From Metallosphaera tengchongensis (GTDB taxonomy: Archaea > Thermoproteota > Thermoprotei_A > Sulfolobales > Sulfolobaceae), in NCBI RefSeq assembly GCF_013343295.1, contig NZ_CP049074.1, positions 1,345,501 to 1,409,500 on the forward strand: a stretch of 64,000 bases of DNA, written 5' to 3'. Positions within the stretch are counted from its first letter, which is position 1. Each line of letters begins with the position of its first letter. Below are positions 14,583 through 19,073 of this stretch, in pieces. A program made the position numbers and the translations under genes. The notes below the pieces were generated by a model, which was given only the letters and a program-made list of their open reading frames with translations, was not told the DNA's origin and made no database searches.

Positions 14583-14679
14583 TTTTTGGATCTTAGCTAT
14601 TTTTACGATTTCTATACCACATAAACAGCTTTAGTGATGAATCCGTTAAACTGCTCCCCCCAATTGGTCATTCCATCTA

Positions 14680-15282
14680 TCAGGGGTTTGGGTTTCCTAA
14701 TCTATTGAGAGGATCTTTATTTTTGTAGAAAATGTTTATGTCTATCTTTCTATATTCCCTTGCTAATAAAACAAACGCGACTAATATTATCTGACTCTCT
14801 ATAAGCTCAGCTGATAATATGAATGGAAGATATAAGTTATTTAACTGAGGGAAAACTACAGCTAAAACAATTAAGAAACCGGCACTTGACAGGAGAGCAA
14901 TGGACACACCATTAAGGATTCTGTAATAGAGGCGAATTTTATCGGATGTTTTCTCGATTTCGCTGATCTCTCTTGCTTTCTTAGCCAATGCACTCAGTTG
15001 TCTCTCTATAGGTTTTATCCTCTTGGCAGTGGCTTCATAAATCTCCTCCCAATCCTTACCTCTCATGTTTGTAATATATGTCATGACTTCCTCAACTAGA
15101 CTTGCTGTTTCACTGTCCCCCATTAATTGGGTGAGCTCTATAAGAAAGTCTAAAGTTTTCTTCATATTCGCCTCTTTCTTTCTATCCTCAATCCTCCTCA
15201 TGAAGTTCTGTGTGGAAGGTCGTATAGAAATTACCAAAAACAGGCTCAAAATAAAGGATAATAAAACCAGTAAACTAACCAA
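14680..15282 (-). CDS. Membrane protein with central coiled coil, unknown function
   Basis: The 200-residue protein has one N-terminal hydrophobic segment (residues 1-20), a long charged helical middle (about 25-115) and two membrane segments (about 120-145 and 150-172). No family is recognised. TTG at 15282 is the only start at the front of the frame. It follows the Sso10a-like regulator gene on the same strand with a 64-base gap, and the pair is divergent from the secreted-filament-like operon starting at 15838. This location suggests a role with that operon, but this is inference from position only. Confidence 0.65.
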   Translation of the reverse strand: MVSLLVLLSFILSLFLVISIRPSTQNFMRRIEDRKKEANMKKTLDFLIELTQLMGDSETASLVEEVMTYITNMRGKDWEEIYEATAKRIKPIERQLSALAKKAREISEIEKTSDKIRLYYRILNGVSIALLSSAGFLIVLAVVFPQLNNLYLPFILSAELIESQIILVAFVLLAREYRKIDINIFYKNKDPLNRLGNPNP

Positions 15283-15346
15283 AAATGAAAACCTCTGGGT
15301 AAATCCATAACTCAGTTAAAAGACCATGAACTCATTTAGGATATCA

Positions 15347-15619
15347 TTAAGATACCTCTTCCCTTAGTTTTTTCAGTTTCTCTTTCAACTCTAAATACTC
15401 CTTAGCACTTCGAAGATACTGTTGCCCCTTCTTAGTTATTCTATATTCTTTTTCTTCATACGTAATAAAGCCTGAGTCTATAAGGAAATCAACGTATTTG
15501 CAGAACGTCCTGTAACTCAGATTTGATAAATACATTAATCTGGTTCTCTTTATCCCTTCTTTACATGACTCTAGCAACTTTACCTTAATCTCTATATCAT
15601 TTCTTTTTTGTTGCCCCAT
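15347..15619 (-). CDS. Sso10a-like winged-helix DNA-binding protein
   Basis: The protein (90 residues from ATG 15619) resembles the Sulfolobus Sso10a family: a winged helix (NDIEIKVKLLESCKEGI, RTRLMYLSNLSYRTFCKYVDFLIDSGFI, YRITKKGQQYLR) followed by a C-terminal coiled coil (about residues 62-90) that makes the antiparallel dimer. Family members bind and bridge DNA or regulate locally. A TTG at 15652 would add 11 residues, but a TATA-like box (15651-15660) overlaps that start, so ATG 15619 is preferred. It is divergent from the filament-like operon and a candidate regulator of it. Confidence 0.85.
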   Translation of the reverse strand: MGQQKRNDIEIKVKLLESCKEGIKRTRLMYLSNLSYRTFCKYVDFLIDSGFITYEEKEYRITKKGQQYLRSAKEYLELKEKLKKLREEVS

Positions 15620-15800
15620 TGTAGAATCTATTACATCAACTATATCTGACAATTTAAACTTTCTTTCTATAGATTTTAGCTTTCAGTAGAAGATCCTACC
15701 TTAACGTTCTATGTACATCTCTGTCCATAGCAACTTTCGTCATAGAAAGACATAGATGCTAAAATTAATTAACGCATATGTTTTTTTAAGTTTTTTTCCT

Positions 15801-15810
15801 TATATACTTA
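15801..15810 (+). promoter_or_regulatory. TATA box of the secreted-protein operon
   Basis: TATATACTTA is preceded by long T tracts and followed 10-20 bases later by AGGAGAAG (15821-15828). The transcription start would fall near 15827-15835, just before GTG 15838. This is one of the strongest promoter-like stretches in the window and suggests high expression of the first gene. Confidence 0.65.
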
Positions 15811-15837
15811 AATAAAGGTTAGGAGAAGAGTCTTTCA

Positions 15838-16548
15838 GTGAATGAAAAAATGAACCTAAATTTAAAACTGGTAGTGGCAATGTCAATAGCTCTAGTGCTG
15901 TCGACATTGCTTGTCTACCAAGCCTTCGTGGCGGGATTTGTAGTGAGCAACCTAGCTCAAGGAAGCGTAGTATCGATAGACAGTGAAAACGCTTTGCTGC
16001 AAATAGATCCAATAGAGTTCTCTGCAGTTCAGAACAATGGTGGTTTAACTATATCTCTTCCAGCTATTGCACCTGGCTCTGTTAACTATGGCGCATTTAT
16101 CCATACTACTTCTGGTAATACGTATGATTTCTCCGCAGCTTATTTGTTTGCGTTAGTCGAAGCCGAATTCAATTATCCCAACAATTCTTACATACGTGCT
16201 AACCTGTCAGCATCATTGGAACACGTCATGGGTTTGGATCCAAATGCGACAATATTGATCCTGGGTTCCTCTCCTAGTTCCTTCTCAGCTATAACTAATT
16301 TCCCAAACAACTCAATAACTGTTTCAGAGTGTGGATACGGTCAAGTGAACGTTAATGGCATGACGTTCGCAGTCCTTGGAGGATATGGTCCAGGAGCATC
16401 TCAGTTAGGTCAGGGAAGCGTGACGATAGGAAGTGGAGCAGCAGCTGGAGAATTGATCTACATGTTAGTTCTCTTGCCAGCAAACGCCACTACAGGTACC
16501 TTCAGTGCAGCTCTGAACCTATACGGCTATCAGGTATCTTCTCCATAA
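15838..16548 (+). CDS. Secreted TasA/thread-like filament subunit candidate
   Basis: This 236-residue protein has a Sec-type signal (basic start, hydrophobic residues about 11-31), then a mature region of about 205 residues rich in Ser, Thr, Asn, Gly and beta-branched residues, with a few N-glycosylation sequons (NNS, NLS). A short GFVVSN motif follows the hydrophobic core and recurs in the protein at 17661. The region after it (GSVVSIDSE, then ISLPAIAPGSV) is reminiscent of the first strands of TasA/camelysin-like subunits. GTG 15838 or ATG 15850 may be used. A SipW-type signal peptidase gene is next. Together this suggests a donor-strand-exchanged surface filament like archaeal bundling pili or Sulfolobus threads; no structural proof is available. 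Confidence 0.65.
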   Translation: MNEKMNLNLKLVVAMSIALVLSTLLVYQAFVAGFVVSNLAQGSVVSIDSENALLQIDPIEFSAVQNNGGLTISLPAIAPGSVNYGAFIHTTSGNTYDFSAAYLFALVEAEFNYPNNSYIRANLSASLEHVMGLDPNATILILGSSPSSFSAITNFPNNSITVSECGYGQVNVNGMTFAVLGGYGPGASQLGQGSVTIGSGAAAGELIYMLVLLPANATTGTFSAALNLYGYQVSSP

Positions 16549-16592
16549 ATCTCCTGAAGGCTAAAGGGTGAAAAGATAAAAGAGGATTTTTT

Positions 16593-17657
16593 ATGACGTA
16601 TCTAATTGCATTTTCGTGGTACTTCACAAAAGCTGTCAAGATATTTACAAAGGTCGTCGTTCTACTCATCTTTTTATTTTCAGTCTTTATAGCGACTGCT
16701 AACCTACTGGGTAGACCTACCTTCCTCGCGGTAAGTTACGGTTACAGCATGTTCCCGGTTTTAAAACCTGGAGAATTGGTATTAACTATTCCTGAACCTT
16801 TAGTTGGAAAAGTAAGCAATGGGAGCATTATAGTGTTCAGAGATCCCGATTACGGGAAGATCCCTGGCTATCCGCCATACATAAGCCATCAAGTAGTAGA
16901 TATACTTCCAAACGGAACCTACATCACCAAGGGTATCAATGACAACTTTGTAGACCAAATATATATGCCTCCATTGAATAATTCACAAATATATGCAGAA
17001 GTGGTAACAATCAATGGTAATCCGGTGGTATTACCATATTTAGGCCAAGTCCTGGAAACTGTAAGGTCAAACCTCCTAATCTCATTTTCAGGATTAACCC
17101 TAATAGCTATCGTAATCGGTTCTATGAACAAGAAGAATAACAGGATCGTGACTTCAAAAGGGGTCATTGTATTCTTCATAGGCCTTTTCATCTTTTCGGC
17201 ATTCGTCATTATGTCCAGCACTTCAACGTCCTCCTTCACTACTGTTTACTCTGTTTCCTCGTCTCCAGGTTACCTGTTTGGCGGAACGCTCACGTCTCCC
17301 TCGGTAAACTTACAAGTCTTACTCTACAACCAGACCAAGAGCTATACTTTCAACGTTACAGACAAGTTAATATTCCCCGAGGTGGTCGAAATAGACGTAC
17401 TAGGGGGAAATGGCTTCAATATTACTCCAACGACCTTCATCTTGTATCCTCATCAAACAAAGATGGTCAACTTGACTGTGGTAGGACAAGGTAGCCAAGG
17501 ACTGCACACACTAATTATAAAGAGTTACAGTATGTATACACTTCTCCCAATTATCCTAAACATCTCAAGTTCACTGTACTCAATGTTTATCTACTCAGCA
17601 TTGAGCGATCTTTTACTCCTCGCCTTCATCGCTATACCCATTTTAAGAGGTGACTAG
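16593..17657 (+). CDS. SipW-type signal peptidase I with C-terminal extracellular domain
   Basis: The first 140 residues form a type I signal peptidase of the archaeal/ER/SipW kind: membrane segment 20-42, catalytic S52 in YGYSMFPVL, H99 in ISHQVV replacing the bacterial lysine, and D121 in the TKGINDNFVD box. Two more membrane segments (about 157-175 and 185-205) lead to an Ig-like beta-rich extracellular region (about 210-325) and a last membrane segment. Total length (354) is far above the usual 160-200. A dedicated SipW peptidase next to TasA-like genes processes them in Bacillus; the setting here is the same, with subunit candidates on both sides. The extension may hold or assemble the subunits (inference). 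Confidence 0.82.
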   Translation: MTYLIAFSWYFTKAVKIFTKVVVLLIFLFSVFIATANLLGRPTFLAVSYGYSMFPVLKPGELVLTIPEPLVGKVSNGSIIVFRDPDYGKIPGYPPYISHQVVDILPNGTYITKGINDNFVDQIYMPPLNNSQIYAEVVTINGNPVVLPYLGQVLETVRSNLLISFSGLTLIAIVIGSMNKKNNRIVTSKGVIVFFIGLFIFSAFVIMSSTSTSSFTTVYSVSSSPGYLFGGTLTSPSVNLQVLLYNQTKSYTFNVTDKLIFPEVVEIDVLGGNGFNITPTTFILYPHQTKMVNLTVVGQGSQGLHTLIIKSYSMYTLLPIILNISSSLYSMFIYSALSDLLLLAFIAIPILRGD

Positions 17658-17660
17658 AAA

Positions 17661-18074
17661 GTGAAAATGCTCCTTATCATAGGCCTTGGAACGCTAATAC
17701 TTTCCCTGGCCTTTGTAAGTTCCTTCTCTCCTGGGTTCTACGTATCCAATAATTTTGGGAGGAACGTTATAACAAACAACATGATAAGTTATTCCACATA
17801 CTATGTAAACGGAACTGAAGTGGTGGAAATGTTCATTAATCCATATTACTCCTCCATCATTAGCCACATTTCGATTACCATTTACTGTCAAACCAACAAC
17901 GTGTCCACTCCAGGGAGTTATATCAATTTCGGTAATGAGTTACAGGTTTTCACGTCAGGTTACTATCCATTTTTAGTAAAATTTTATTGTAACTCTACAC
18001 AGAATATTAAAGCTCAGATTACTTTATACTATATAGGTAAAGGTGTTGGATCATTAAGTTTAACTATAAATTAA
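17661..18074 (+). CDS. Small secreted protein, possible minor filament subunit
   Basis: A 137-residue protein with a signal-peptide-like start (residues 2-22) followed by GFYVSN, the same local motif seen after the hydrophobic core of the protein at 15838. The mature part is about 110 residues, beta-rich, with several N-glycosylation sequons and two cysteines. It starts with GTG three bases after the signal peptidase stop, with GAGGTGA seven bases upstream. By analogy to TapA-like accessory subunits it could be a cap, base or minor subunit of the same structure. This is inference; the protein itself is not recognised. Confidence 0.62.
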   Translation: MKMLLIIGLGTLILSLAFVSSFSPGFYVSNNFGRNVITNNMISYSTYYVNGTEVVEMFINPYYSSIISHISITIYCQTNNVSTPGSYINFGNELQVFTSGYYPFLVKFYCNSTQNIKAQITLYYIGKGVGSLSLTIN

Positions 18075-18109
18075 AGAAAATTAGGTTCGGCCTGCTTCTG
18101 GCCTTTCTC

Positions 18110-18979
18110 GTGATCGGCTCTATACTAATTTATTTTGGTGTGAGGTCCAACTCTTTGGTTTACGTACCGCATAAGGTGGTAACTGGATCTTACTTCGAAG
18201 AAACTAAGTATGCGACAACGTTTTACATAAATAACTCGATCCTTTTCAACAATAAAACTGTGATCAACTCCAGTTCAATGTTCACAGCATTGGTGGAGAA
18301 GTTGAATGTGAACGGAACGTTTATTACAAACGCTCTGTCTTACACGGGGAACTACACTGTAAACGAGACCGTGATGACCCCAGTGTGGACCAAGTCCCTT
18401 GGGATAATTGAGAGGGGAAACTTGACCGAAAAGTTCTTTTCATACACACCTAACTTCACTTCCATAGGTAAACTTGTGAGCGAGATAAATAAGGAACTGA
18501 AAATAAGAGATTTCGGTTACGAGCTGGAGGTAAACATAACCGTTGAGGGTAACGCTAAGTATCAAAACGGAACCGTACCATTTTACCTCACCGATGGGTT
18601 CCTTATAAGGAACAGCTCCTATAACGTTTCCGTTATTATTGGACAGGATTCCAGGGAAAGCGGGAACTTCTACACTTTTATCACGGTTCCTACAAAAACT
18701 GGTTACAACTACTCCTACTTCTATGCAGCAGCTGTACTGATATTTGCAGGACCGATAGAGTACTTCTTCATAAGGAAGCCTGACATAAAGAGGGTCATAG
18801 CGAGGAACTCAATTCAAGGGTCAGCCCCCCCAGCTAACCTCACAAGTATAGAACTGAAGAGACCGCAGGACATGCTTAGGTTGATGAAGCAGTACAACAC
18901 GAAACCCATTTCCTACGAAGACGGTTTCTACATTGTCCATGAAAACTTAGCGTACATTTATCACGTAAGGGAGACTTAA
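18110..18979 (+). CDS. Membrane-anchored extracellular protein, DUF5305-like
   Basis: The 289-residue frame has an N-terminal membrane segment, an extracellular domain of about 190 residues with at least ten N-glycosylation sequons, a second membrane segment (near 205-222) and a cytoplasmic tail of about 65 residues. This arrangement matches the DUF5305 proteins found beside signal peptidases in archaea. The frame is open upstream of GTG 18110 and encodes KKIRFGLLLAFL in line with a full N-terminal anchor, but offers only TTA (18071) or ATT (18080) as start codons, so the true start may be non-standard. It ends the four-gene operon. Confidence 0.68.
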   Translation: MIGSILIYFGVRSNSLVYVPHKVVTGSYFEETKYATTFYINNSILFNNKTVINSSSMFTALVEKLNVNGTFITNALSYTGNYTVNETVMTPVWTKSLGIIERGNLTEKFFSYTPNFTSIGKLVSEINKELKIRDFGYELEVNITVEGNAKYQNGTVPFYLTDGFLIRNSSYNVSVIIGQDSRESGNFYTFITVPTKTGYNYSYFYAAAVLIFAGPIEYFFIRKPDIKRVIARNSIQGSAPPANLTSIELKRPQDMLRLMKQYNTKPISYEDGFYIVHENLAYIYHVRET

Positions 18980-19073
18980 GTTAAACTTTTTAGAAAGGGC
19001 CTTGAAATTTCTCTTTTTCGAGACAGTGATCACTGTCATGTTGTGGGATTCAAAGGAAGTCACTGCCACTTTT

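Follow-up and report, generated by a model that had tools for sequence, protein, structure and literature searches.

We propose that six neighbouring genes of a Metallosphaera genome of 2.18 Mb encode a surface fibre of the donor-strand type, together with a signal peptidase dedicated to it; this is the best reading of the locus, and filament formation is its prediction. The genes lie in the window, by which we mean the whole stretch of 64,000 nucleotides analysed, and they form one unit made of four forward-strand genes (hereafter A to D) and two upstream members. In its broader form, namely that a horizontally mobile module makes a single protein fibre outside the cell, or a surface layer resembling one, it is a proposal towards which we lean slightly. 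It is drawn from the joint conservation of the six genes, from the presence of homologous B and D partners in AbpX-type pilus loci, from the AbpA-like subunit of a sister module and from a motif specific to the module type.

The six-gene unit, its peptidase and its membrane partner

The initial annotation had described four genes in tandem, and all four open reading frames are present on the forward strand of the window where it had placed them. They are indeed conserved together, yet the real unit comprises six genes, two on the reverse strand having been missed. The features are as follows.

14583–19073, no strand assigned: inserted segment with the six-gene module, delimited by a gap relative to congeners and a drop in GC
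14680–15282, reverse strand: coiled-coil membrane protein of 200 aa, conserved at every type I locus as a neighbour of the other module genes, and also found in sister modules
15347–15652, reverse strand: winged-helix regulator (HTH_45 / Sso10a family), from Pfam, NCBIfam and conservation
15797–15812, forward strand: putative archaeal TATA-box-like sequence 5' of A (cttatatacttaaata), read from the sequence
15850–16548, forward strand: A, secreted beta-rich protein, presumed major subunit; start from orthologue comparison
16593–17657, forward strand: B, predicted signal peptidase of the ER type (Ser52/His99), with membrane helices and, on the C-terminal side, a beta-type domain outside the membrane
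17661–18074, forward strand: C, small secreted protein that presumably serves as minor subunit, initiator or cap
18074–18979, forward strand: D, membrane-anchored and DUF5305-like, with the first canonical start at 18110

The start of A common to its orthologues is the ATG at 15850, a longer GTG start at 15838 (open reading frame 15838–16548) being possible. The frame and membrane helix of D reach back to about 18074 in a stretch (18071–18110) devoid of ATG, GTG and TTG starts; translation probably begins at a rare codon or is coupled to the end of C. The winged-helix protein matches Pfam HTH_45 (E 1.6e-20) and exceeds the cut-off of NCBIfam Sso10a. Pfam and NCBIfam searches of A and C gave no meaningful match, and a promoter scan returned matches at shuffle level with bacterial models, which are not applicable to archaea. 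N-glycosylation sequons are carried by all four proteins (5 in A, 8 in B, 3 in C and 14 in D). When the open reading frames between 10 and 26 kb of the window were compared by BLAST with the orthologous loci, essentially the six module genes alone were matched. These genes are conserved together across the type I loci and also form a unit in sister modules that carry another subunit; the M. sedula group has all six gene types in another arrangement, with B, C and D on one strand and A on the other.

Against TIGR02228, the model for archaeal signal peptidase I, the peptidase B gives an E-value of 3.7e-10, a match below the cut-off of that model. Ser52 (SM box), His99 and Asp121 are invariant among the orthologues, and the first Asp usually found in the KGD box is replaced by Ile (TKGIND), as it is in the sister module. 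The protein also carries about 200 extra residues, conserved among orthologues that share 42–55% identity overall. The Ser-His pair, the conserved boxes and the profile match thus place B, as judged from its sequence, among the ER-type signal peptidases I (SipW-like, S26B), bearing out the initial description of a SipW-type enzyme with a large extra domain. It is distinct from the housekeeping enzyme, a short peptidase of 142 aa encoded elsewhere in the genome (G000:C1:376854-377168); genomes without the module exist. We infer that B serves its neighbouring substrates A and C and not housekeeping. In profile comparisons, most of the length of B aligned with the sister peptidases (99.6%), and B also matched the C-terminal catalytic domain of long peptidases from other Thermoproteota (97.6%). 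The D profile matched DUF5305-type partners at 97–98% (97.8% for DUF5305 proteins), and the D orthologue of M. sedula is above the Pfam cut-off for DUF5305 (PF17231), which the D of the window alone did not reach; its designation as DUF5305-like can therefore be kept. On these comparisons, B and D belong to the same lineage of peptidase/DUF5305 modules as AbpX-like loci.

In Thermoproteota, a long-type peptidase is found directly beside the AbpX gene (PDB 9sj2, 9rhp; E 6e-101, 7e-95), and also at loci that combine AbpX-like subunits with DUF5305 and winged-helix genes. The AbpX-like subunits elsewhere in this phylum match solved AbpX by sequence, and TasA stands among the next matches of their profile at insignificant values (E 0.23, 0.28). 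By module, the unit described here is, at the level of homology searches, kin to archaeal bundling pili, the link running through the B and D partners and the sister subunit. In line with the TasA/AbpA/AbpX fibre subunits, A has a SipW-type peptidase as its neighbour. AbpA, AbpX and TasA each build their fibres by donor-strand complementation (PMC11952670), and for this reason we favour the same mode of assembly for the module.

Fold of the subunits and the shared motif

The AlphaFold2 model of A, built from 9 sequences, is of low confidence (pLDDT 59). Residues 1–63, themselves of low confidence, form a signal helix followed by coil, and residues 63–227 a beta-rich domain, so that the model as a whole is a low-confidence beta-sandwich with a loose N-terminus. 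Foldseek comparison of the model with the PDB gave weak matches, mostly to jelly-roll or beta-sandwich proteins and none below E 1e-3. The sequence of A had no match in the PDB, its profile revealed no similarity to the sister subunit and AbpX-type families, and neither A nor C matched TasA, camelysin or TapA; sequence homology of A to the TasA/AbpA subunit superfamily was not observed. The model of the sister subunit (pLDDT 73.5), in which the shared N-terminal segment (25–37) is unstructured, aligns with AbpA 7ueg over 163 columns with a probability of 1.00 and TM-scores of 0.44/0.42; 7ueg ranks fourth among its matches and has the top TM-scores among those listed. The connection to TasA and AbpA suggested in the initial annotation thus stands for the module, through the peptidase, DUF5305 and a sister subunit like AbpA, but not for A itself, which is without sequence kinship. 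As a separate observation, the sister subunit of one genome (G023, L123:4105-4611) matches the NCBIfam 'fimbrial adapter' TafE with an E-value of 6.6e-9, far below the cut-off, which is perhaps an echo of donor-strand pilin folds.

The isolated position of A is also what would be expected if B matured A and C into surface-coat or S-layer-associated glycoproteins, single proteins that decorate the S-layer or membrane without polymerising, with D as their membrane partner. The sequons in all four proteins and the fact that no additional filament of S. acidocaldarius has been reported (PMC10127717) are consistent with such a coat. We nevertheless consider it unlikely: the TasA operon likewise pairs a dedicated peptidase with a major and a minor substrate that have a post-signal strand in common, and the sister modules and AbpX loci, which have homologous partners, carry fibre-type subunits.

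The motif GF-V-SN, claimed at the outset to follow the hydrophobic core of both secreted proteins, was confirmed as GFVVSN in A and GFYVSN in C, directly after the core in each. The degenerate DNA pattern for GFxVSN occurs at 4 sites genome-wide and codes exactly for the motif in just 2 of them, those of A and C. When the 30-residue segment of C is shuffled, 0.75% of the trials score at least as high against A as the real sequence does. The Phe is invariant across all orthologues of A and all those of C; the most conserved residues are GF, then GSVV-x-I, in A, and P-x-F-x-x-S in C. A different motif, F-x-Y-T, tends to be common to subunit and small protein in the sister modules, and the matching of motif to module type exceeds label permutation (p=0.0038), a test in which kinship is ignored although related loci are not independent, and in which some loci are individually non-significant. 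The candidate cuts in A and C are VA↓GF (Phe at P2') and VAG↓F (Phe at P1'), of which the latter is the better fit to the full set of orthologues in both families. The cut site of TasA is TWA↓AFND (PMC10269814), and the solved AbpX chain begins at TYA↓QWSE, with an aromatic among its first residues, comparable to A.

It can be asked whether GFxVSN is a recognition site for the peptidase and nothing more, the fibre assembling by another mode and C being an unrelated effector. The motif does sit exactly in the expected cleavage region beside a dedicated peptidase, and type-specific matching would be expected from peptidase specificity alone. However, the conservation of A runs well beyond the motif, to GSVV-x-I, and the monomer models leave the segment without structure, as expected of a donor strand; the recognition-site explanation is in our judgement improbable.

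Distribution, probable acquisition and the thread locus

Among 229 class-level genomes, A was found in 9, all within one family (Sulfolobaceae). A tenth match, in G149 (E 7e-4), concerned a solute-binding-protein-like open reading frame of which the N-terminal part alone aligned, and was discarded as spurious. The initial annotation would have been refuted by orthologues lacking the peptidase gene in most genomes; this is not what is seen, B lying near A in eight of the nine genomes. In the ninth, G029 (L014:6204-7967), transposase genes stand in place of B and C, D is broken and A is intact, which is a natural decay state of the module. The sister module, with its different subunit, is found in 9 other genomes of the family, and none of 31 genomes has both types (hypergeometric chance about 0.025, relatedness being ignored).

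We take G003 to be M. sedula DSM 5348, G004 to be M. javensis AS-7 and G020 to be S. acidocaldarius DSM 639. The assignment of G020 is supported by the published coordinates of VapC3/VapB3 (Saci_1790/1791), 1557436-1558100, which match open reading frames in L011 (PMC10127717). The module is absent from the site between the DUF35 and alcohol dehydrogenase genes in all five other Metallosphaera genomes checked: the gap measures ~95–185 bp in G003, G004 and G005, as against 4.49 kb in the window, and the site holds an ATPase gene in G002 and another gene in G001. Such varied occupancy, from nothing to an ATPase or other gene, suggests that this interval may be an insertion hotspot. The inserted segment has a GC content of 32–44%, compared with ~50% in the flanks, a sign of transfer to be read with the knowledge that surface genes are commonly low in GC anyway. 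Third-position GC is 0.34–0.46 in five of the six module genes and 0.55 in D, the mean of the window being 0.54. The flanking thiolase and dehydrogenase are 90% and 69% identical, respectively, to those of M. sedula. A is 56% identical to its counterpart in S. acidocaldarius and 32% to that in M. sedula; for B the values are 54% with S. acidocaldarius and 42–43% with the M. sedula group, and for D 50% and 28–29%. In the peptidase tree, the window copy groups with Sulfolobus and genus g6 with moderate support (85/83), and the M. sedula group falls outside. Because the module is absent from this site in congeners, AT-rich and closer to Sulfolobus and g6 than to the copy that its congeners carry, it was probably acquired horizontally by the window genome, and its transfer as a single unit is likely.

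The insertion relative to congeners, the low GC and the phylogenetic incongruence, together with the distant phage-family matches of the regulator, might also point to proviral or plasmid-borne cargo unrelated to host surface structures. We reject a viral or proviral origin, which appears very improbable: viral relatives of A or B were not found, five of the six proteins have no virus-family match, no integrase or replication gene lies within the insertion, and the module shows long-term conservation in several genera.

The initial annotation had also invoked the threads of Sulfolobus, and this kinship did not hold. The thread locus of S. acidocaldarius (Saci_0404-0409) belongs to the same organism family and has the same general composition, a secreted beta-rich major subunit with a small secreted neighbour; the notion that the module is the thread locus of its genus, an orthologue of saci_0404-0409, is nonetheless virtually excluded, as S. 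acidocaldarius carries the Saci_0406 locus and the module separately, at 347.7 kb and 1560.5 kb, with the A orthologue spanning 1560498-1561211, no homologue of Saci_0406 was found in the window genome, and A compared with the thread profile gave a probability of 1%, that is, no similarity. Unlike the module, the thread locus had no signal peptidase among the open reading frames examined, and the distribution of threads among genomes follows another pattern. Within Metallosphaera (G000-G005), thread and module are mutually exclusive, threads being present in G001 and G005 and the module in G000 and G002-G004. At a locus of G048 (L122:5554-8723), a peptidase of Sulfolobales-type architecture is separated by two genes' distance from a secreted protein that resembles Saci_0406, by eye, in its N-terminus (YYPV...PPIYFSL); this protein may be a thread-type subunit served by a peptidase of its own.

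The sole paper found to name the module locus of S. acidocaldarius is the study of BarR, in which D is Saci_1796 and the downstream winged-helix gene Saci_1797 (PMC4977709). This Lrp-type regulator binds in and just after the D gene, beside the winged-helix gene (L011:7799-9206), as seen by ChIP-seq and EMSA, with no measured change in expression (PMC4977709). Papers on threads and a study of biofilms describe threads as the only non-type-IV filament of this species (PMC9715654, PMC11607397, PMC10127717), and this is what speaks most strongly against a fifth filament being abundant in the conditions studied; our search of the microscopy literature found no report of one.

The proposed fibre and its relation to known systems

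Returning to the donor-strand fibre, we propose that A would be exported by Sec as the major beta-sandwich subunit, and that B would cut A and C at the same unusual site, with an aromatic residue right past the cut. Cleavage would free a new N-terminal strand starting at or beside the Phe of GFxVSN, and the strand of A could then fill the open edge of the next subunit by donor-strand complementation. C, presenting the same strand on a different small body, may act as initiator or cap; D could anchor the base of the fibre at the membrane, and the winged-helix and coiled-coil membrane proteins may control expression or assembly. This fibre reading is weakened by the lack of profile kinship and the poor model of A, by the silence of the literature on a fifth filament, by the retention of A without B and C in G029 and by the restriction of A to nine genomes. 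The most specific version, an undescribed fifth filament of the Sulfolobales whose subunit A is a new fold family or an extreme TasA/AbpA outlier matured by its own peptidase, in which a small protein processed alongside A imitates the donor strand and so starts or caps the fibre, and whose six genes spread between genera as a unit, is tentative and more probably wrong than right.

Four filaments have been described for S. acidocaldarius, the model organism for archaeal cell surfaces. To these the present analysis adds a surface-fibre operon as candidate for a fifth, in the genome of a strain for which working genetics exist. It further suggests that peptidases beside fibre subunits, from Bacillus TasA to Pyrodictium AbpX and the Sulfolobales, follow a single widespread scheme, within which the peptidase and the anchor may persist as subunit families are exchanged. 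The locus-specific motif common to the major and minor proteins leads to a direct, testable prediction of the way in which such fibres could be started or stopped in the absence of a chaperone.

One close relative is the sister peptidase/DUF5305 module of Saccharolobus and relatives (L060-L066, L123), which has the same gene types, a homologous D, a peptidase homologous to B with the same architecture, and a subunit and small protein that share an N-terminal motif as A and C do; it differs in its subunit family, with an AbpA-like fold and a weak DUF1102 match, and in the motif shared. The comparison extends to AbpA of Pyrobaculum calidifontis and AbpX of Pyrodictium abyssi: the AbpX gene adjoins a long signal peptidase, AbpX-related loci add DUF5305 and winged-helix genes as here, and the solved AbpX chain begins just past an A↓x-aromatic site in likeness to A. 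A has no detectable sequence homology to either protein, and the catalytic domain of B is N-terminal, whereas AbpX-type peptidases carry theirs at the C-terminus. The Bacillus operons tapA-sipW-tasA and sipW-calY likewise combine a dedicated ER-type peptidase with major and minor secreted substrates and an aromatic residue beside the cleavage site (PMC9674648, PMC10151520, PMC10269814), to which the archaeal module adds the DUF5305, winged-helix and coiled-coil genes.
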